Of a DNA stretch of 64,000 bases, positions 3,982-54,794 are shown one piece after another. A program made the translations under genes and the position numbers. The stretch lies in assembly GCF_002907375.1 (NCBI RefSeq), contig NZ_MIYK01000001.1:186001-250000 (forward strand), written 5' to 3'. A model generated the notes under the pieces. It was not told where the DNA came from. It did not search any database and worked only from the letters and a program-made list of their open reading frames with translations. Position 1 is the stretch's first letter. Each line of letters begins with the position of its first letter. The stretch comes from Fructilactobacillus lindneri DSM 20690 = JCM 11027 (GTDB lineage Bacteria; Bacillota; Bacilli; Lactobacillales; Lactobacillaceae).

Positions 3982-6594
3982 ATGGCAAAAAAGAATACAG
4001 CAATGATGGAGCAGTATCAAAAAATCAAAGATCAGTATCCGGATGCTTTTTTATTTTACCGAATTGGCGATTTTTATGAATTGTTTAACGAAGATGCAGT
4101 TAAAGGTTCGCAGCTGCTTGAACTAACGTTGACAGCTAGGAATCGAAAAGCCGAAAATCCCATCCCGATGTGTGGTGTTCCACATCAATCAGCCCAAACT
4201 TATATTGATACTTTGATAGATAAAGGGTATAAAGTTGCAATTTGTGAACAAGTTGAAGATCCTAAATCAGCTAAAGGCATGGTTAAACGGGAAGTTATTC
4301 AATTAGTTACTCCTGGAACCCAAACTGATAATAATTCAGAAACTGCAAAAGTTAGCAATTATTTAATTGGGCTTACTTATGATGAAATGAGTTCTCAATA
4401 TGGTTTATCATATATTGAATTGTCTACTGGAGAACTAAAAGTTAGTTTGTTAGATTCGATTGAAATGGTGTTAAACGAAGTTATAAATCTTAATGCTAAA
4501 GAAGTTGTAGTTGATGATACGATTACTAATGGAATAACTGATAGTTTGAAAAAGAGAGGGATTTTAGTTTCTATTCAACAATCTTCACAAGATTTAGATG
4601 ATTATGACATTATTACTAATGTTGATAATGTGATTTTAAAAAATTCATTAATATTATTATTATCATATGTTAATGAAACACAAAAAAGAAGTCTTTCGCA
4701 CATTCAACCAGCAGTGTTATATGAACCTAATTCATTTCTAAAAATTGATCATAATTCACAATATAATTTAGAATTAATGAAAAATATCCGGACTGGCAAA
4801 AAATCAGGAACTCTTTTGTGGGTAATCGATGATACTAAAACTGCCATGGGTGGTCGCAAACTGAAACAATGGTTAGAGCGACCATTGATTAATAAAGATG
4901 CAATTGAAAACCGTCAGCGATTAGTTGAAATTTTACTTGATAATTATTATGAAAGAAATGAATTACGTGATGCGTTAGTTAAAGTATATGATTTGGAAAG
5001 ATTAGCAGGACGAATTTCATTTGGTGGTGTTAATGGAAGGGATCTTGTCCAATTAAAATCTTCTTTAGAACAAGTACCTAAGATTAAACATGTTTTAAAT
5101 GAACTTGACACGCCGGGATTTAATGATATTTACCAACAGCTTGATGATATTCATGACGTTTTAGAGCTGATTGATGATTCAATTGTTAATGAACCACCAA
5201 TTTCAGTTACAGATGGTGGCATTATCAAACCTGGATATGATTTGAAACTTGATGAATATCGTGATGCGATGCAAAACGGAAAGCAATGGTTAGCTGATTT
5301 AGAGACGCGTGAGCGTCAAGCAACTGGAATTAATAATCTAAAGATTAAGTATAATCGTGTTTTTGGTTATTTCATTGAAATTTCAAAGGGAAACTTAAGT
5401 AAAATAGATGATCAACGTTATGAGCGAGTACAAACATTGACAAACGCTGAACGATTTACTACACCCGAATTAAAAGCAAAAGAATCATTGATTTTAGAAG
5501 CACAGGAAAAATCTCGTAGTTTAGAATATAATATTTTTACTAAGATTCGGAATGAAATTCAAAAGCAAATTCCACGAGTACAAAAACTTGCAAGTGGGAT
5601 TTCTAGTTTAGATGTTTTACAAAGTTTTGCGATGATTAGTGAAAAGCAGCAGTTTGTAAAACCAAACTTTAATCAAAAGCATCAATTGCATATTACAAAT
5701 GGTAGACATCCGGTAGTTGAAGAAGTAATGAAGACCCAATCTTATGTACCAAACGATGTTGATATGGACCCCAATACTGGTATTTTATTAATTACTGGAC
5801 CAAATATGTCAGGGAAAAGTACTTATATGCGGCAGTTAGCATTAACAGTTATTCTTGCTCAAATTGGTTGCTTTGTTCCTGCTGAAAAAGCTGAAATGCC
5901 AATTTTTGATCAAATTTTTACGCGCATTGGAGCTGCGGATGATTTAATTTCTGGTAAAAGTACGTTTATGGTTGAAATGAAAGAGGCTAATCAAGCTATC
6001 CAAAATGCGACTCCAGATAGTTTAATCCTTTTTGATGAATTAGGTCGTGGAACGTCAACTTATGATGGGATGGCATTAGCACAGGCAATTATTGAATATA
6101 TTCATAACGATGTTCATGCTAAAACTTTATTTTCAACTCATTATCATGAATTGACTGATTTAGCACAAAATTTAACTCAGTTAAAAAATATTCATGTGGG
6201 AGCAGTTGAAAAAGAAGGACAATTAGTGTTTTTGCACAAAATATTGTCTGGTCCTGCAGATAAGTCTTATGGTATTAATGTTGCTAAGTTGGCTGGTTTA
6301 CCAGATGATTTATTAAAAAGGGCTCAGACAGTTTTAACAGATTTAGAAAATTCTGAAACAAAAAAACGTTCAGACAACCTAAATGTAACACCGGAAACTA
6401 CTGAACATTCTTCAAATGGAGAGCAACAAATGGAACTTTTCAAAGTAGAAATTCCAAATCAATCAGAAAATAAAGTTAATGCTAAAACTCAGGAAATAAT
6501 TGATGAGATTAATAAAACTGATTTAATGGGGAAAAGTCCTATAGAAATTATGAATTTAGTTTATAAATGGAAACAGGCTCTAAATAAAAATTAG
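3982..6594 (+). CDS. mutS: DNA mismatch repair ATPase MutS
   Basis: An 870-residue MutS. The N-terminal mismatch-binding domain has the F-x-E motif (RIGDFYELF). Connector, lever and clamp domains follow, and the C-terminal ABC ATPase has Walker [10 protein letters not shown] (about residue 606), Walker [17 protein letters not shown] and the STHYHELT switch. It binds mismatches and recruits MutL. It starts 17 bases after ymdB and is followed by mutL after 16 bases, so mutS-mutL form one operon. The length is standard for Lactobacillales. Confidence 0.97.
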
Positions 6595-6610
6595 AATTGG
6601 GGTGAAAGTA

Positions 6611-8536
6611 ATGGCAAAGATTCATGAATTATCGAGTATTTTATCCGATCAGATTTCAGCTGGAGAAGTAATTGAGAGGCCAGCATCAGTTGTAAAAGAA
6701 CTAGTTGAAAATTCAATTGATGCTGGTAGTTCTAGGATAGATATCGAAATTAATGAATCTGGTTTAAAAGGAATTAAAATTGTAGATAATGGAAGCGGAA
6801 TTGCACCTGACCAGGTTAAATTAGCATTTAAGCGTTTTGCAACTAGTAAAATAAGTTCTCAAAATGATTTATTCGATATTCATTCACTGGGATTTCGTGG
6901 TGAAGCTCTTCCAAGTATTGCTGCAATTTCTAATGTTGCAATGAAAACTTCTGATGGAAAACAACATGGAAGTGAAATTCAAGTTTATGGTGGGGAAATC
7001 ATCAAGCAGATGCCAGCTGAATTGAGACGAGGAACTTCAGTTGAAGTTAAAGATTTGTTTTTTAACACTCCACATCGGTTAAGATATTTGAAATCAGCTA
7101 GTACGGAACTTAGTAAAATCACTGATGTTGTTAATCGACTAGCATTGAGTCATCCTGAAATAGCAATTTCATTAACGCATAACGGTAAAGAAATATTGAG
7201 AACTTCCGGTCGAAATAATTTATTACAGGTGATTGCTGGAATTTATGGTAATCAAACTATGAAAAAAATGCTTGAGATTAAAAACGAAAATGAAAATTTT
7301 AGTCTCACGGGATATACCAGTTTGCCAGACTTAACTCGAGCTAGTCGTAAATATATTTCAATAATTATTAACGGCCGATTTGTGAAGGATTTTACTTTGA
7401 ATCATGCAATTATTGAGGGATATGGATCAAAGCTGATGGTTGGTCGATTTCCAATTTCGGTTATTAAGATTGAAATGAGTCCGAGTTTAATTGATGTAAA
7501 TGTCCATCCAACGAAACAGGAAATTAGATTGTCAAATAGTAGGGAATTGAGTGATTTTATTGCAAAATCAATTTATTCGTTTTTGGCGAAAGAAAATTTA
7601 ATTCCGGATGCAATGGAAAATAAAACATTGAAACGTGGTGTCTCGGAACATAATAGTATGGAAGTGGCTTTGAATTTTGATGACTTGGATGATCAGAAAT
7701 CCCAAACAAGAAATATTGTTATTGAAAAAAGTCAAGATTCATTAAAGTTTAAAAAAACGACTAAAATTGAAAATAATAATTTTCAAAGCCATCAGCCCGC
7801 TGTCATCTTAACTAAAAATGATTTAAATTCTGAGGCAGTCATCGATTTTAAAAATCGTTATAGTCGAGAACGAGTAGAAGGACCATTTGGTACAGAAAAG
7901 GCGAAAGAAAATCATGATAATGTTCGTTTTCCTAAGCTTCGCTATATTGGGCAAGTTCATGGCACTTATCTAATTGCTGAATCTGAAGACGGGATGTATA
8001 TTATTGATCAGCATGCTGCTCAGGAAAGAATTAACTATGAGCAGTTACGAAAACAAGTTGGCATGATTGAAAGTGATGAACAGAACTTGTTAGTTCCAAT
8101 TGTGTTAGATTATCCTGCTAGTGATGCTTTGGAAATCAAAAACAACTTTGAACTTTTGGCTTCAGTAGGAATTAACTTAGAATCATTTGGAGAAAATAGT
8201 TTTGTAGTTCGTCAGCACCCAACTTGGTTTGAAAAAGGACAGGAAGAAAAAACAATTCGAGAAATGATTGATTGGGTCTTAACTAACCGAAAATTAAGTA
8301 CAGCGGAATATCGCGAAAAGGCTGCTATTATGATGAGTTGTAAACAGGCAATTAAAGCCAATCATCATTTGAATGAACAACAAGCAAAAGGATTGTTAGA
8401 AAATTTGCAAAAATGTGAAAATCCTTTTAATTGCCCTCATGGACGTCCAGTTTTAGTCCATTTCAATCCTAGTGATTTACAGACAATGTTCAAAAGAATT
8501 CAAGACCCCCATGATACTAATAGTTGGGAATTTTAA
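6611..8536 (+). CDS. mutL: DNA mismatch repair endonuclease MutL
   Basis: A 641-residue MutL. The GHKL ATPase domain shows KELVENSIDAG, DNGSGI and FRGEALPSI. The C-terminal domain keeps the nicking-endonuclease motif DQHAAQERINYE (DQHA-x2-E-x4-E), the Zn-site motif NCPHGRP and FKR, so it is the endonuclease type typical of bacteria lacking MutH. ATG 6611 is chosen over an upstream in-frame GTG at 6602 because TTGGGGTG at 6597-6604 then serves as ribosome site and the family begins M-x-KIHELS. The linker between domains is lysine- and asparagine-rich and poorly conserved. Confidence 0.97.
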   Translation: MAKIHELSSILSDQISAGEVIERPASVVKELVENSIDAGSSRIDIEINESGLKGIKIVDNGSGIAPDQVKLAFKRFATSKISSQNDLFDIHSLGFRGEALPSIAAISNVAMKTSDGKQHGSEIQVYGGEIIKQMPAELRRGTSVEVKDLFFNTPHRLRYLKSASTELSKITDVVNRLALSHPEIAISLTHNGKEILRTSGRNNLLQVIAGIYGNQTMKKMLEIKNENENFSLTGYTSLPDLTRASRKYISIIINGRFVKDFTLNHAIIEGYGSKLMVGRFPISVIKIEMSPSLIDVNVHPTKQEIRLSNSRELSDFIAKSIYSFLAKENLIPDAMENKTLKRGVSEHNSMEVALNFDDLDDQKSQTRNIVIEKSQDSLKFKKTTKIENNNFQSHQPAVILTKNDLNSEAVIDFKNRYSRERVEGPFGTEKAKENHDNVRFPKLRYIGQVHGTYLIAESEDGMYIIDQHAAQERINYEQLRKQVGMIESDEQNLLVPIVLDYPASDALEIKNNFELLASVGINLESFGENSFVVRQHPTWFEKGQEEKTIREMIDWVLTNRKLSTAEYREKAAIMMSCKQAIKANHHLNEQQAKGLLENLQKCENPFNCPHGRPVLVHFNPSDLQTMFKRIQDPHDTNSWEF

Positions 8537-48282: not shown

Positions 48283-48422
48283 GAACTTCTTTATTTTACT
48301 ATAAATCATTTATAAATGGAATAGAAATCAGGGGTTGTAATATATTGTGGTTATGCTATATATTAAATATAATTAAAAATTTCATAAGAAATATTATGGA
48401 ATAAACATTGGTGGGAGTAGAT

Positions 48423-48881
48423 ATGGAAAAACTTACAGGGGTCGATAGCAAAGTTTGTTTTGCAATTTATAATGCAAATAAAAAGTTTAATAGATTTTAT
48501 CAAAATGCTTTGTCTTCATATGATTTAACATACCCACAATATATCGTGATGGTAGTTTTATGGCAATATGCTCCAATGACAGTACGCGAATTAGGTTCTC
48601 ATGTTGACTTAGACAGCGGAACATTAACACCACTTTTGAAACGGCTTGATAAAAAAGGATGGATAACTAAAGAACGTTCTAAAAAGGATGAGAGAGTAGT
48701 AAACATCGGTGTGACAGATCAGGCTAAAAAGTTAGAAGATGATATTTGCACACATGTTGATACGTGCTTTGATATTTTAGGGATGTCTAAAACACAAATC
48801 GCAGATTCAGTCGAAGTGATTGATAATATACTTGATAAATTAGATAAAGTTGATACTAAAAAAATAAAAGATGCAAAATAA
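48423..48881 (+). CDS. MarR-family organic peroxide sensor (OhrR-like)
   Basis: A 152-residue winged-helix regulator. LTYPQYIVMVVLWQYAPMTV, then LDSGTLTPLLKRLDKKGWI and RSKKDERVVNI match the OhrR branch of MarR proteins. Cys12, Tyr26 and Tyr37 have the exact spacing of the B. subtilis OhrR redox triad (Cys15, Tyr29, Tyr40), so a peroxide-sensing role is likely. ATG 48423 with GTGGGAG upstream is used, and an in-frame GTG at 48408 lies within the ribosome site. No ohr peroxidase gene is adjacent, so its target is elsewhere. Confidence 0.82.
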   Translation: MEKLTGVDSKVCFAIYNANKKFNRFYQNALSSYDLTYPQYIVMVVLWQYAPMTVRELGSHVDLDSGTLTPLLKRLDKKGWITKERSKKDERVVNIGVTDQAKKLEDDICTHVDTCFDILGMSKTQIADSVEVIDNILDKLDKVDTKKIKDAK

Positions 48882-48947: not shown

Positions 48948-49062
48948 TTTTTAGTCATTGATTTTGCTAGAATTAAAATGCTGCAATATGTAAAAAGTAT
49001 AAGATTTAATATAAAAATAAAACTCGCTAATTTATAAGATAGCTAGAATGGGGTATGGTAAA

Positions 49063-50613
49063 TTGTCGTTAAACATTGATGAGATTCAAATTCTTTTACA
49101 AGAACATAATTTGTTGAAATCATCTGTTTCAGCTAATCAAAAAAAATATAGTTATATTAGTTATGATTCTCGTGATGTAAAAAATGATACTTTATTTTTT
49201 TGTAAAGGAAATTTCAAACCAGAGTATCTTGAGATTGCAAAAGCATCTGGTGCAACAGGTGTTGTAGCTGAAAAACATCTTCCAGCTAGTTCTGGAATGG
49301 ATGAATATATCGTAACTGATATTCAAAAAGCTTTGTCGTTATTATCAGTTGCATTTTATGATTATCCACAAAATGATTTGTTTATTATAGCGGTTACTGG
49401 AACGAAAGGGAAGACTACCTCATCATATTTGTTACGAGATGCTATTGATAAAGCATCAGGAAATAAGACCGCGTTATTTTCTACAGTTAATACTGTGATT
49501 GGAAATAAAAGCGGGGATACATTTAAATCTCAGTTAACGACCCCTGAGTCGCTAGATGTTTTTCGCAATATGCGTAGAGCTGTTGACAATGGCATGAAAA
49601 TTTTAGTGATGGAAGTTTCATCTCAGGCTTATTTAAAAAATCGAGTTTATGGTTTGAAATTTAATATTGGATCTTTTTTAAACATTTCACCGGATCATGT
49701 AGGAGAGAATGAACATCCAACTTTTGCTAATTATTTACATTGTAAAGAACAATTATTGATAAATTCAAAAGTAACAATTATAAATGCAGAAACGAAAAAT
49801 CTAGATGACGTTTATTATGCTGCTAAGGCAACTTGTAATCCTGAGAATGTTTATTTGTTTGCTAGAAATGGTGCTAAAACTGAAATTCCAGTTACTTTGG
49901 ACTTTGTTTTTGATAGTAAATCCGATACTTTAAGTGATAATGAGATTTATTTGAAAAGTTTAACTAAAAAGGGGGAAAAGTTAAACTTAGATGGAAATTA
50001 TCGAATTGGAATTCCGGGAGATTATAATGAAGCCAATGCAACTGATGCTATTATTGCAGCAGGGTTAGCTGGTTTTAAACGGACCGATTTGTTAAAAGGA
50101 ATTGCAGACACTAAAATTCCAGGACGAATGGAAATGTACTCAAGCCAAGATCATGGAACAGTTTATGTTGATTATGCACATAATTATGCTAGTACACGTG
50201 CATTGCTTGGATTTTTAAAACGACAAAATCCAAATGGTCGGGTAGTAGCAGTGGTTGGAAGTCCTGGTAATAAAGGGATTGACCGTCGTGAAGGCTTTGG
50301 GAAAGCATTAAATGAAGAAGCTGATGTGGCTTATTTGACAACCGATGATCCCGCTTATGAAAATCCCCAAAAAATTGCTCAAGAAATTGATTCATATATT
50401 GATCATGATAAAGTTGATGTTCATTTTAATCTTGATCGAGAACAAGCAATTAAGGATGCAATTTTGTCTGGAAAAAAGGAAGATATTATTGTAATTCTTG
50501 GAAAAGGGCAAGATCCATATCAAAAGGTCAAGGGAATTGATATTCCTTATCCCACAGATTCTGCAATAGTTAAAAAAATTGTTGAATCATTAAATCAAGA
50601 TACTAAAAATTAA
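49063..50613 (+). CDS. murE: UDP-MurNAc-tripeptide synthetase, L-Lys type (MurE), copy 1
   Basis: A 516-residue Mur ligase. The N-terminal domain includes YDSRDVKNDTLFFCKGNF. The P-loop GTKGKTT is at residues 113-119, followed by TTPESLDV, MEVSSQAYLKNRV, the carbamylated-lysine region YLHCKEQLL, VDYAHNYAS and GSPGNKGIDRREGFG. The specificity motif reads DDPAYE, as in L-Lys-adding MurE (DNPA) rather than meso-DAP enzymes (DNPR). It adds L-Lys to UDP-MurNAc-L-Ala-D-Glu. TTG 49063 is chosen because the tandem paralogue then aligns residue for residue. ATG 49048 is an alternative. Followed by a divergent copy, then the D-Asp side-chain genes. Confidence 0.88.
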   Translation: MSLNIDEIQILLQEHNLLKSSVSANQKKYSYISYDSRDVKNDTLFFCKGNFKPEYLEIAKASGATGVVAEKHLPASSGMDEYIVTDIQKALSLLSVAFYDYPQNDLFIIAVTGTKGKTTSSYLLRDAIDKASGNKTALFSTVNTVIGNKSGDTFKSQLTTPESLDVFRNMRRAVDNGMKILVMEVSSQAYLKNRVYGLKFNIGSFLNISPDHVGENEHPTFANYLHCKEQLLINSKVTIINAETKNLDDVYYAAKATCNPENVYLFARNGAKTEIPVTLDFVFDSKSDTLSDNEIYLKSLTKKGEKLNLDGNYRIGIPGDYNEANATDAIIAAGLAGFKRTDLLKGIADTKIPGRMEMYSSQDHGTVYVDYAHNYASTRALLGFLKRQNPNGRVVAVVGSPGNKGIDRREGFGKALNEEADVAYLTTDDPAYENPQKIAQEIDSYIDHDKVDVHFNLDREQAIKDAILSGKKEDIIVILGKGQDPYQKVKGIDIPYPTDSAIVKKIVESLNQDTKN

Positions 50614-50749
50614 CCTTGTATTTTAAATTAAAAATAATCAAACTAAAGATTTTTTTAATTTATGAGTAATAAAGCTGTAATATAAATCATTTAAAATAAC
50701 ATTTATGAACTCATTGAAAAATAGATACCGCAGAACGGAGTCCTAACAT

Positions 50750-52297
50750 TTGTCGTTAAATGTCAAAAAAATAAAAACAATTTTATATGAACATGGTTTG
50801 TTGCAATCAACTAACGCAATGGGTCATCCTGAATTTGAGTATATAAGCTATGATTCCCGAGACATTCAGAAAAATACTTTATTTTTTTGTAAAGGAAATT
50901 TCAAACCAGAATATTTAGAAACAGCTAAAGAGGCTGGTGCTACTGGTGTTGTTTCCGAACGTCATCTTCCAGCAAGTGCTGGAATGAATGAATTTATTGT
51001 AAAAGATATTCAAAAATCGATGGCTCTGCTCTCCGCCGCTTTTTTTAATTATCCACAAGATGAATTGTACATTATTGCAATTACTGGAACTAAATGTAAG
51101 ACAACTTCAGCATATTTTGTGCGTGATGCAATTCAAAACGCTACTAATGATAAGGTTGCCATTTTTTCCACCATCAATACAGTGATTGGGAATGCACCTA
51201 GTGATAATTTTAAATCTCATTTAACAACTCCCGAGTCTTTAGATATTTTTCATAATATGCGAAGAGCAGTTAATAATGGAATGAAAATTTTGGTAATGGA
51301 AGTCTCTTCTCAGGCCTATCTTAAAAATCGTGTTTATGGATTAAAATATGATATTGGATCATTTCTCAATATTTCTTCTGATCATGTAGGGGAAAATGAG
51401 CATCCAACGGTTGCTAATTATTTGCATTGTAAGGAACAGTTACTGGTAAATTCTAAAATCACAATTATTAACGCCGAAACGGATAATTTAAAAGACGTTT
51501 ATTATACTGCTAAAGCAACTTGTAATCCTGAAAATATTTATTTATTTGCTAGAAAAAATGCAAAATTAGAAATTCCAATTAAGCTAGATTTTATCTATTC
51601 AAGCGAAGTGGATACATTAAAGCTAAATGAGATTTATATGCAGTCTTTAACTAAAAAGGCAAAAAAACTTGACTTAGATGGTAGTTATCGCTTAGGGTTG
51701 CCTGGCGATTATAATGAACCAGATGCCGCAGATGCAATTATTTCTGCTGGAATTGCTGGATTTAAACGTTCTGATCTTACTAAAGGAATTGCTAGTACAC
51801 AAATCCCTGGAAGAATGGAAATTTACGAGACAAAACATAATGGAACGGTTTATGTTGACTATGCACATAATTATTCTAGTATGCATTCGTTATTATCTTT
51901 TTTAAAAAGTCAAAATCCAGATGGAAAAGTTATCGTAGTAGTTGGTTGTACTGGCAATAAAGGGATTATTCGTCGAAAGGGAATTGGAAAAGCATTAAGT
52001 GAAAATGCCGATGTGGCGTATCTAACCATGCAAGATCCAGCTTTTGAAGATCCCAAAGAAATATCAAAAGAAATTGATTCCCATATTGACCATAGTAAAG
52101 TCGATGTTCATTTTGTGATGAATCGGGAAACAGCGATTGCTGATGCAATCAAACAAGGTAAAAATGATGATATAATTGTAATAGCGGGAAAAGGAAGAGA
52201 TCCATATCAAAAAATTAATGGGGTTGATACTCCATATCCTACTGATACAGTTATTGTTAAAGAATTAGTAAAGGAACTGAATAAAAATGACTGTTAA
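50750..52297 (+). CDS. MurE-like ligase, tandem copy 2 with altered ATP and substrate motifs
   Basis: A 515-residue paralogue of the preceding gene, colinear over the whole length. The P-loop Gly116 is Cys (GTKCKTT, codon TGT instead of GGN). The Lys-binding DDPA motif reads MQDPAFE, losing the first acidic residue, and GIDRRE is GIIRRK. The carbamylated-lysine region, VDYAHNY and the C-terminal GKGRDPYQK are kept. The frame is intact, and TTG with ACGGAG upstream starts it. Its end overlaps the D-Asp ligase gene by 11 bases, so it is still translated in the operon. It may be weakly active, regulatory, or specific for another substrate. Confidence 0.82.
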   Translation: MSLNVKKIKTILYEHGLLQSTNAMGHPEFEYISYDSRDIQKNTLFFCKGNFKPEYLETAKEAGATGVVSERHLPASAGMNEFIVKDIQKSMALLSAAFFNYPQDELYIIAITGTKCKTTSAYFVRDAIQNATNDKVAIFSTINTVIGNAPSDNFKSHLTTPESLDIFHNMRRAVNNGMKILVMEVSSQAYLKNRVYGLKYDIGSFLNISSDHVGENEHPTVANYLHCKEQLLVNSKITIINAETDNLKDVYYTAKATCNPENIYLFARKNAKLEIPIKLDFIYSSEVDTLKLNEIYMQSLTKKAKKLDLDGSYRLGLPGDYNEPDAADAIISAGIAGFKRSDLTKGIASTQIPGRMEIYETKHNGTVYVDYAHNYSSMHSLLSFLKSQNPDGKVIVVVGCTGNKGIIRRKGIGKALSENADVAYLTMQDPAFEDPKEISKEIDSHIDHSKVDVHFVMNRETAIADAIKQGKNDDIIVIAGKGRDPYQKINGVDTPYPTDTVIVKELVKELNKNDC

Positions 52298-53540
52298 AAC
52301 ACCAGATTTTACACCAATTCTTTTAGGCAGTGATTTTAATGTCTATGGAATGGCACGTTCTTTTTATGATTTATATGGAAAGCCAGTTAAGGCAATTGCT
52401 CAAACGCGATTAGCACCAACTCGTTATACTAAAATTGTTGATTTAGAAATTGTGCCAAATTTCAGTGAGGATCCTGCTTGGATTGAAGAAATGCGTAAGC
52501 TAAAAAAAAGATATGCAAATCATTCAGAGCCAGTAATTTTAATCGGCTGTAGTGACGGATATGCTGAATTAATTTCTAAGCATAAAGATGAATTAGAAGA
52601 TGTTTTTATTTGTCCTTATGTTGATTATTCATTGATTAAACAATTAAACAGTAAAGAAAAATTTTATGAATTATGTGACAAATTGAATATTCCTTATCCA
52701 GGAACTAAAGTGATTACTAAACAAGATTATAAAGATGATAATTTTGCTCAGCCATTTGGATACCCAATTGCGGTTAAGCCTACTAATAGTGTTGAATGGC
52801 TTGATATTCATTTTGAGGGTCGAAAAAAGGTATTCATCATTAAAGATGAAGCTGATTATCGAGATAAAATTGGAAAAATTTATGACAATGGTTATACTTC
52901 GGATGTAATTGTTCAAGACTTCATCCCTGGTGATGATAGTAATATGCGAGTTATTAATGCTTATGTTGATAAGAATCATAAAGTTAAAATGATGTGTTTA
53001 GGTCATCCTTTACTTGAAGACCCGGCGCCGGGAGCAATTGGCAATTATGTAGCTATTTTACCGGAATATAATGCACAAATTTATGATCAAATCAAAAGAT
53101 TTTTGGAAAGCGTTAACTATACTGGTTATGCTGATTTTGATATGAAGTGGGATTCTCGGGATAATACTTATAAGTTATTTGAAATTAATCTTCGGCAAGG
53201 AAGAAGTAGTTTTTATGTAACTTTAAATGGTTATAATTTAGCAAAATGGTTAGTGGATGATTATGTTCTTGATAATTTAAAAGATAAAGATACTGTTTAT
53301 GCTAATCAGGATAAAAATAACTATCAACTATGGCTGGGTGTACCAGAAAAAGTTTTTGAAAAGTATGCTAAAAACAATCAAGATAAAAAAGAAGCTCAAA
53401 AATTAATTTCACAAGGTCAAGTTGGCAATACTTTTTGGTATAAAAAAGATGAAAATTTTATGCGTTGGTTATTAATGAAGTGGATTGATCATAATTATGT
53501 TGAAGACTTCAAAAAGTATTTCCATGCAGAAAAAGGGTAA
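52287..53540 (+). CDS. ATP-grasp carboxylate-amine ligase, D-aspartate ligase-like
   Basis: A 417-residue ATP-grasp protein. An N-terminal domain (ILLGSDFNVYGMARSFYDLYG) is followed by the ATP-grasp core with PFGYPIAVKPTNS, VIVQDFIPGDDSNMRV and the Mg-binding LFEINLRQGRSSFYV. It resembles Aslfm of Enterococcus faecium, which adds D-Asp to the Lys side chain of UDP-MurNAc-pentapeptide. The position between murE copies and an aspartate racemase gene supports that role. It overlaps copy 2 by 11 bases. Confidence 0.83.
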   Translation: MTVKTPDFTPILLGSDFNVYGMARSFYDLYGKPVKAIAQTRLAPTRYTKIVDLEIVPNFSEDPAWIEEMRKLKKRYANHSEPVILIGCSDGYAELISKHKDELEDVFICPYVDYSLIKQLNSKEKFYELCDKLNIPYPGTKVITKQDYKDDNFAQPFGYPIAVKPTNSVEWLDIHFEGRKKVFIIKDEADYRDKIGKIYDNGYTSDVIVQDFIPGDDSNMRVINAYVDKNHKVKMMCLGHPLLEDPAPGAIGNYVAILPEYNAQIYDQIKRFLESVNYTGYADFDMKWDSRDNTYKLFEINLRQGRSSFYVTLNGYNLAKWLVDDYVLDNLKDKDTVYANQDKNNYQLWLGVPEKVFEKYAKNNQDKKEAQKLISQGQVGNTFWYKKDENFMRWLLMKWIDHNYVEDFKKYFHAEKG

Positions 53541-53545
53541 AGATT

Positions 53546-54262
53546 ATGAAGGATTTTTTTACAATTATTGGTGGAATGGGAACAGAAGCAACAGAATCGT
53601 ATATTCATCAGTTGAATAAAAAAACTGATGCTCATCAAGATCAAGACTACTTAAACTATATTCTTGTAAATCATGCGACGGTTCCTGATCGAACTGATTA
53701 TATTATTGATCCCAAGAATCATCCTGATCCTTTGAAACCATTAGCTGAAGATATTAAGCAACAAAGTAAGCTGGGACCAGAATTTTTTGCACTTCCATGT
53801 AATACTGCTCATTATTTTTATAATCAATTACAGTCATTAACATCAATTCCAATTTTGCATATGCCAAATTTAGCAGTTGCGGCGATTAGCAAAAAATTTC
53901 CAAGTGCTAAACGTGTTGGTCTAATTGCTACTAAAGGAACATTAAAAGACAAAGTGTATGAAACACCAATTAAAAAAGCTGGATATGATTTAGTGATGCC
54001 AACAAGTGAAATTGCTGATGAAACCATGCAATTAATTTATGATGATGTTAAAGAACAAAATTGGGTTGATGCTGATTTATACCATCATATTCTTGATCAA
54101 ATGACGAATGATTTGAATTGTGATGTTGTTATTTTAGGTTGTACTGAAATATCAGTTGCAGAAGAACGTGCTGGTAGTGATGGTTATCATGTAATTGATG
54201 CTCAAAGCGAATTAGTTGATGAATCAATTAGATTGGCTGAAAAAATGCAAAAAAGTAAATAA
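53546..54262 (+). CDS. Aspartate/glutamate racemase family protein (likely aspartate racemase)
   Basis: A 238-residue racemase: IIGGMGTEATESYI, NHATVPDRTDYI, the first catalytic Cys in ALPCNTAHYFY and the second in VILGCTEIS. This matches aspartate racemases, distinct from the MurI already present at 22108. It would supply D-Asp for the ligase encoded just upstream (five-base gap). A strong bidirectional terminator closes the unit. Confidence 0.88.
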   Translation: MKDFFTIIGGMGTEATESYIHQLNKKTDAHQDQDYLNYILVNHATVPDRTDYIIDPKNHPDPLKPLAEDIKQQSKLGPEFFALPCNTAHYFYNQLQSLTSIPILHMPNLAVAAISKKFPSAKRVGLIATKGTLKDKVYETPIKKAGYDLVMPTSEIADETMQLIYDDVKEQNWVDADLYHHILDQMTNDLNCDVVILGCTEISVAEERAGSDGYHVIDAQSELVDESIRLAEKMQKSK

Positions 54263-54723: not shown

Positions 54724-54794
54724 GCGGGTGTAGTTTAGTGGTAAAATTTAAGCTTCCCAAGCTTACGTCGTGGGTTCGATTCCCGTCACCCGCT
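54724..54794 (+). tRNA. tRNA-Gly (CCC)
   Basis: Acceptor GCGGGTG/CACCCGC with a T discriminator, anticodon stem TAAGC/GCTTA with loop TTCCCAA, T arm TGGGTTCGATTCCCG. It is directly followed by the argS T-box leader. Confidence 0.95.

Follow-up and report, generated by a model that had tools for sequence, protein, structure and literature searches.

MurE determines which amino acid stands third in the stem peptide of peptidoglycan. In PMC3829189, the L-lysine ligase of Staphylococcus aureus is described as binding the epsilon-amino group of lysine through Asp-406 and Glu-460, and substitution of the former (D406A) raised the Km from 0.55 to 2.8 mM and lowered the kcat from 4.833 to 0.001 per s, so that kcat/Km for lysine fell from 8.787 to 0.001 per s per mM, a loss of about 8,800-fold. 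Overexpression of D406A was followed by no lysis, and A409R, which imitates the E. coli form of the motif, gained no mDAP activity, as reported in the same paper, from which the MurE ATP motif TGTxGKT and the role of the carbamylated lysine are also taken. A MurE homologue of plants, PAP11, has been reported as a peripheral component of the plastid RNA polymerase (PMC12681378), and in L. lactis one operon holds both aslA and racD (PMC4155827).

Here, a second murE gene (copy 2) is described that lies in tandem with an intact one (copy 1) in Fructilactobacillus lindneri. Judged by its sequence, copy 2 is a catalytically suspect, long-constrained second MurE derived from a real tandem duplication, found in one genome. 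Like other Lactobacillaceae MurE proteins, it is full-length and scores above the cut-offs of both NF001130 and TIGR01085; it differs from them by Cys in place of the P-loop Gly, Gln in place of the first Asp of DNPx, Asp in place of Asn325, and an intact copy alongside. Its predicted fold matches MurE structures including that of S. aureus (4c12), although the model is of moderate quality (pLDDT 68.7 on average, below 50 at residues 114-117, 141-163 and 187-224, among others) and was used for the fold alone. The solved sequences and folds closest to copy 2 include PAP11, but this protein comes from plants and carries a long extension at its N-terminus, and the tobacco protein keeps both GTNGKTT and DNPK; the likeness would thus lie in the repurposing of a MurE, not in the lesions. 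As to the view of the initial annotation that Mur ligase pseudoenzymes would be unusual, no paper bringing a Mur ligase and a pseudoenzyme together was found in the open part of PMC, but PAP11 is a known MurE homologue with a role outside peptidoglycan synthesis. Among the papers listed from the open part of PMC, none deals with this particular murE duplication, as judged by title or abstract opening. If the reading of copy 2 given here is true, the pair would offer a natural paralogue model of an essential ligase turning into a regulator or changing its substrate, and annotation, which scores both copies above the MurE cut-off, would count two working enzymes.

The duplicated murE locus

Two complete murE ORFs lie in tandem on the forward strand of the window, the 64,000-nucleotide stretch of DNA that was analyzed (GC 31.5%; Table 1). 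Copy 1 starts with TTG and encodes 516 amino acids, or 521 if the ATG farther upstream at 49048 is used, and copy 2 encodes 515; the N-terminus TTGTCGTTA is common to both proteins. Over 515 aligned codons the two are 69.1% identical in protein and 73% in nucleotide sequence, with no internal gaps and, as the sole unmatched column, one extra C-terminal residue of copy 1. The residue-for-residue alignment and the intact frame of copy 2, both noted in the initial annotation, are thereby confirmed. The spacer between the copies, in which no terminator-like site was found, is touched by one promoter-like match (50610-50638), which is at noise level, the scan having given 30 sites against 23.3 +/- 4.7 in shuffled sequences.

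Table 1. Features of the murE region, numbered from the first letter of the window
Feature	Position	Strand	Evidence or remark
MarR/OhrR-like regulator, upstream neighbor	48408..48881	+	hmmscan; upstream of murE in 9/9 other Fructilactobacillus loci
Promoter-like stretch TTTTGCTAGAATTAAA upstream of copy 1	48962..48977	+	spotted by eye; a similar one upstream of F. sanfranciscensis murE
murE copy 1, intact MurE	49063..50613	+	NF001130 779 bits, TIGR01085 289 bits; 0/87 invariant columns lost
Copy 1 P-loop Gly codon GGG	49408..49410	+	
Inter-copy spacer, 136 bp	50614..50749	+	no terminator-like site; one promoter-like match
murE copy 2, full-length paralogue altered in the catalytic site	50750..52297	+	NF001130 760 bits, TIGR01085 285 bits; G116C, D428Q; omega 0.05-0.06
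Cys116 codon TGT, replacing the P-loop Gly	51095..51097	+	
Lys228, carbamylated-lysine position, kept in copy 2	51431..51433	+	aligns with Lys of Thermotoga MurE and tobacco PAP11
Asp325 codon GAT	51722..51724	+	Asn in 28/29 orthologues
Ile407 codon ATT, GNKGIxRR loop	51968..51970	+	copy 1 and the 12 relatives listed have Asp or Ser here
Gln428 codon CAA, at the place of the first Asp in DNPx (S. aureus Asp-406)	52031..52033	+	alignments of orthologues and solved chains; PMC3829189
asl, putative D-Asp ligase gene	52287..53540	+	position; beside murE in 8/9 other genus members
racD, aspartate racemase	53546..54262	+	TIGR00035 209 bits, above cut-off; PF01177

Nine other Fructilactobacillus genomes carry a single murE at the same place, downstream of the MarR gene (with one additional gene in between in G003), and two murE genes were observed in 1 of the 10 genomes of the genus, the window's own. 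Since the other nine have one murE at that place, the two copies go back to an in-situ duplication, and the tandem duplication proposed in the initial annotation is supported. Copy 2 is 54-67% identical to the MurEs of these nine genomes, and among the named ones the closest loci are those of F. fructivorans, F. florum and F. sanfranciscensis. In AU tests, a tree with the two copies as sisters was accepted (p = 0.46 for protein, 0.18 for codon positions 1+2), as was one placing copy 1 beside the remaining species (0.71 and 0.63), while joining copy 2 with F. fructivorans was marginal (0.052 and 0.13) and joining it with the remaining species was excluded (0.003 and 0.007). The copies may therefore be sisters, or the duplication may predate part of the genus. 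Gene conversion between the copies found no support, as the longest identical run, of 37 nt, was reached in 166 of 2000 permutations.

Across the family, a MurE match at E values up to 1e-60 was found in 345 of 397 genomes, at least seven of which have two; this count is a lower bound, at most three candidates per genome having been scored. The other six two-MurE genomes belong to genera g6 and g23 (G014, G158, G181, G230, G239 and G336), and in five of them the two MurE-type genes are adjacent, as they are here. However, their 12 copies are 40-52% identical to copy 1 and thus come from other, older events, and the P-loop Gly is kept in all 12.

Downstream, the start of asl overlaps the stop of copy 2 by 11 nt, so that the frame of copy 2 is indeed joined to this gene, as had been noted, though its identity as a D-Asp ligase gene is putative. 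The product has no Pfam or PDB match, its NCBIfam matches are to carbamoyl-phosphate-synthase-like proteins alone and far below cut-off, and the name was given because the aspartate racemase gene adjoins. An asl gene follows murE in eight of the nine other genus genomes, the exception being F. sanfranciscensis, which has no asl match. The single murE overlaps asl in F. fructivorans (11 nt) and in G003 (17 nt, longest ORF) as well, and the overlap is therefore probably ancestral and no peculiarity of copy 2, even if it can shield the frame.

Catalytic residues and conservation

Both copies pass the cut-offs of NF001130 (715 bits) and TIGR01085 (257.3 bits), and both fall below that of the lysine-ligase model NF010628 (428 bits for copy 1 and 420 for copy 2; cut-off 536). 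The best model for both is NF001130, which is named a DAP ligase and fits better than NF010628. Lysine is the presumed substrate of either copy; for copy 1 it is suggested by the motif DDPA, which resembles DNPA of S. aureus and is without the Arg of DNPR. Copy 1, in which the P-loop reads TGTKGKTT, with the ATP-binding motif TGTxGKT present, and the second motif TTDDPA, would be the copy that makes UDP-MurNAc-tripeptide.

In copy 2 the same stretches read TGTKCKTT, which departs from TGTxGKT, and TMQDPA, and both replacements listed in the initial annotation are present in its codons (Table 1). A third change, N325D, which that annotation had not listed, was also observed. Lys228 is kept in both copies and the P-loop Lys117 also in copy 2, and Asp484, found in both copies and the 12 relatives listed, is the acidic partner at the position of Glu-460, aligning with the E of GKGHE or GRGHE in the solved chains shown. 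Replacement of a P-loop Gly should harm ATP binding given the chemistry of the P-loop, and the change probably harms ATP use by copy 2. In each of the five solved-chain alignments shown, position 428 falls opposite the leading Asp of DDPR, DNPR or DNPK; 4c12 lies outside these, its residue match resting on the motif named in PMC3829189 and on the other chains. As D428 matches Asp-406 of S. aureus, where D406A is reported to have lost about 8,800-fold in kcat/Km, copy 2 is predicted to be a very poor L-Lys ligase. The altered lysine-binding motif proposed in the initial annotation thus gains support from alignment with solved MurEs and from the S. aureus mutagenesis, with lysine itself as the presumed substrate. 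The change D428Q (GAT/GAC to CAA) requires two nucleotide changes, as does D407I.

The two copies were compared with 29 orthologues, the best-matching family loci with one per genome. At the 87 columns invariant among these, copy 1 departs nowhere and copy 2 at two (G116C and D428Q), keeping the other 85. When the columns conserved in 28 or 29 of the orthologues are considered (125 in all), copy 1 departs at one and copy 2 at five (G116C, D428Q, N325D, H364N and F412I). Whether five is an excess depends on the comparison set: it is against 11 hand-chosen near relatives (mean 0.55, P = 0.0003) and against the nine other Fructilactobacillus (mean 1.33, P = 0.012), but hardly against all 29 orthologues, long branches included (mean 2.90, P = 0.17). 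For the two losses at the strictest level the corresponding values are P = 0.05, 0.11 and 0.38, and two or more such losses also occur in 9 of the 29 orthologues. None of the 29, by comparison, has lost G116 or D428, and copy 2 is therefore extreme in the kind of its changes, not in their number.

Of 397 Lactobacillaceae genomes, the window's own alone showed the exact P-loop Cys pattern GGNACNAARTGYAARACNAC; the same pattern with any codon at the Cys place scores 321 of the 397, the remaining 76 being unscored by it. Among the matches listed, those P-loops without Gly that were inspected were second matches beside one with Gly, or came from genus g55, five of whose genomes have no MurE match in the family survey. 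Residues found in neither the orthologues nor the other copy number 28 in copy 2 and 10 in copy 1, the latter including its extra C-terminal residue.

Selection on copy 2 and its possible roles

Under a codon model with 12 sequences and two topologies, branch omega was 0.048 or 0.057 for copy 2 and 0.069 or 0.064 for copy 1, against a background of 0.066, and other single end branches ranged from 0.016 (L017) to 0.104 (L022); because synonymous distances are high (dS of 1.3-1.9 on the branches of the two copies), these absolute values are rough. An omega of 1 on the copy 2 branch was rejected under both topologies (2dlnL of 54.6 and 47.3), and values above about 0.08-0.10 are disfavored, while those up to there pass. 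With an omega of 0.05-0.06, near that of copy 1 (0.06-0.07) and of the background, copy 2 has been constrained as a protein for nearly all of its history. Seven of eight Tajima comparisons place the larger number of unique differences in copy 2 and not in copy 1, two of them with a chi-square above 3.84, which hints at slight relaxation. Averaged over its branch, in this one genome, copy 2 combines purifying selection with a loss of catalytic residues that may have come early or late in its history.

These results rule out a long-standing pseudogene (the frame has no stops, omega is about 0.05 and 85 of the 87 invariant residues remain), and had the frame been kept solely for the translation of asl throughout the branch, omega would be near 1. 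Of the three functional options that the initial annotation had set out unranked, the early pseudogene under weak decay accordingly fails as a long-standing state and is compatible with the data only if very recent, as is a brief recent period of upkeep for asl.

Our tentative preference, somewhat short of an even chance, is that copy 2 is an old in-situ murE duplicate that has been kept whole by purifying selection and has lost, or severely reduced, L-Lys ligation. Copy 1 would supply UDP-MurNAc-tripeptide, and copy 2, translated beside Asl, would be a catalytically crippled paralogue, a pseudo-MurE that may still bind UDP-MurNAc-dipeptide or tripeptide, or a pathway partner, ligand and partner both being guesses. 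The two-change D428Q, in a codon whose residue is otherwise invariant, is easier to reconcile with a long altered regime than with a short one of recent date. Counting against a pseudoenzyme, the 85 other invariant residues kept are more than a long-lived one would seem to need. Not far below an even chance, in our estimate, stands the statement that copy 2 is a stable Mur-ligase pseudoenzyme or a retuned ligase, which would add no lysine, would be under selection to bind cell-wall precursor or to use another amino acid, and would be produced along with the D-Asp ligase, tuning precursor flow or cross-bridge supply.

An inactivation of very recent date is unlikely, though it deserves weight: copy 2 would have been a working second MurE nearly throughout, and stops arising since would uncouple the translation of asl, the 11-nt overlap being a reason in cis for upkeep of the frame. 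Branch-average omega would miss neutrality lasting a few per cent of the branch, as values up to about 0.08-0.10 are unrejected, and in simulated neutral evolution (200 runs per divergence level) 41%, 6%, 1% and 0% of the genes were free of stops at 0.01, 0.03, 0.06 and 0.1 changes per site. A brief spell of full neutrality, of about 0.01-0.03 changes per site, would therefore be invisible to the tests, and it would roughly account for copy 2 having 28 unique residues and copy 1 having 10. D428Q, which takes two hits in a single codon whose residue is otherwise invariant, is improbable in so short a spell, and both invariant-column losses fall in catalytic motifs, a weak point with just two losses. 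The two-step D428Q argues against so short a neutral spell and the kept catalytic residues against a very long-lived dead enzyme, and for these reasons belief is split among a pseudoenzyme, a retuned ligase and recent decay.

Compared with the crippled paralogue that we prefer, an active ATP-dependent ligase whose pocket has been retuned off lysine, for a minor variant precursor or another amino acid, is rather unlikely. Most of the residues of the ATP- and Mg-associated motifs are kept (Lys117 and Lys228), omega is low, D428Q and D407I each took two nucleotide steps, and D428Q, D407I, F412I and S400C all belong to the C-terminal domain, where motif position puts them within or close to the substrate loops. 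On the other side, the P-loop Gly, whose replacement should harm ATP binding, is present in 29 of 29 orthologues, position 407 is Asp or Ser among relatives, and Cys at position 400 also occurs in the DAP-type MurE 7d27 and in PAP11. The A409R change in S. aureus toward the E. coli motif brought no activity with mDAP (PMC3829189).

A working second L-Lys MurE that tolerates its substitutions, as a dosage or differently regulated copy, is the least probable reading, and a poor prospect: the model score is near that of copy 1, omega equals that of single-copy genes, and the sole MurE found in the genome of G019 is altered at equally critical positions, including K228G, but the loss of activity reported for D406A (PMC3829189) and the P-loop Gly in all 29 orthologues and in all 12 copies of the six other two-MurE genomes count against it.

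A MurE lacking the carbamylated lysine

Genus g11 of the Lactobacillaceae is represented by one genome in the set compared (G019). In the single MurE found there, a GGC codon puts Gly where the carbamylated lysine is expected (K228G), and the protein also carries the changes T112A, L231I, N325D, A326G and P435A. Judging from its sequence, and provided that the assembly is correct, this sole MurE would function without a carbamylated lysine. Speculatively, small carboxylates could perhaps rescue the missing Lys228.

Coordinates of the features
Feature	Position	Same gene in
murE of G019	L024 1495-3045 = G019:C31:48046-49596	L068, L069
tRNA-Gly (window)	54724-54794	

Paired MurE-type genes and the asl-racD neighborhood

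Two divergent MurE-type genes per genome were observed in six other Lactobacillaceae genomes of genera g6 and g23 (murE loci L037 and L051-L061), side by side in five of the six. The sequence around the DNP position differs in one member of each pair, and a second substrate specificity is possible for one gene per pair.

Neither asl (putative D-Asp ligase) nor racD (aspartate racemase) adjoins murE in F. sanfranciscensis (locus L040, around 6527-7272), and a search of that genome for asl returned no match; these absences should entail altered cross-bridge chemistry.

Additional observations in the window

The longest identical run between the two tandem murE copies spans 37 nt (49187-49223 vs. 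50874-50910) and is not significant (166/2000, permutation test). The segment 54724-54990 starts with tRNA-Gly; a T-box-like stretch, GAGTGGTACCGCGGG, was noted by eye between this tRNA and argS, where no T-box was detected by Rfam at gathering scores.
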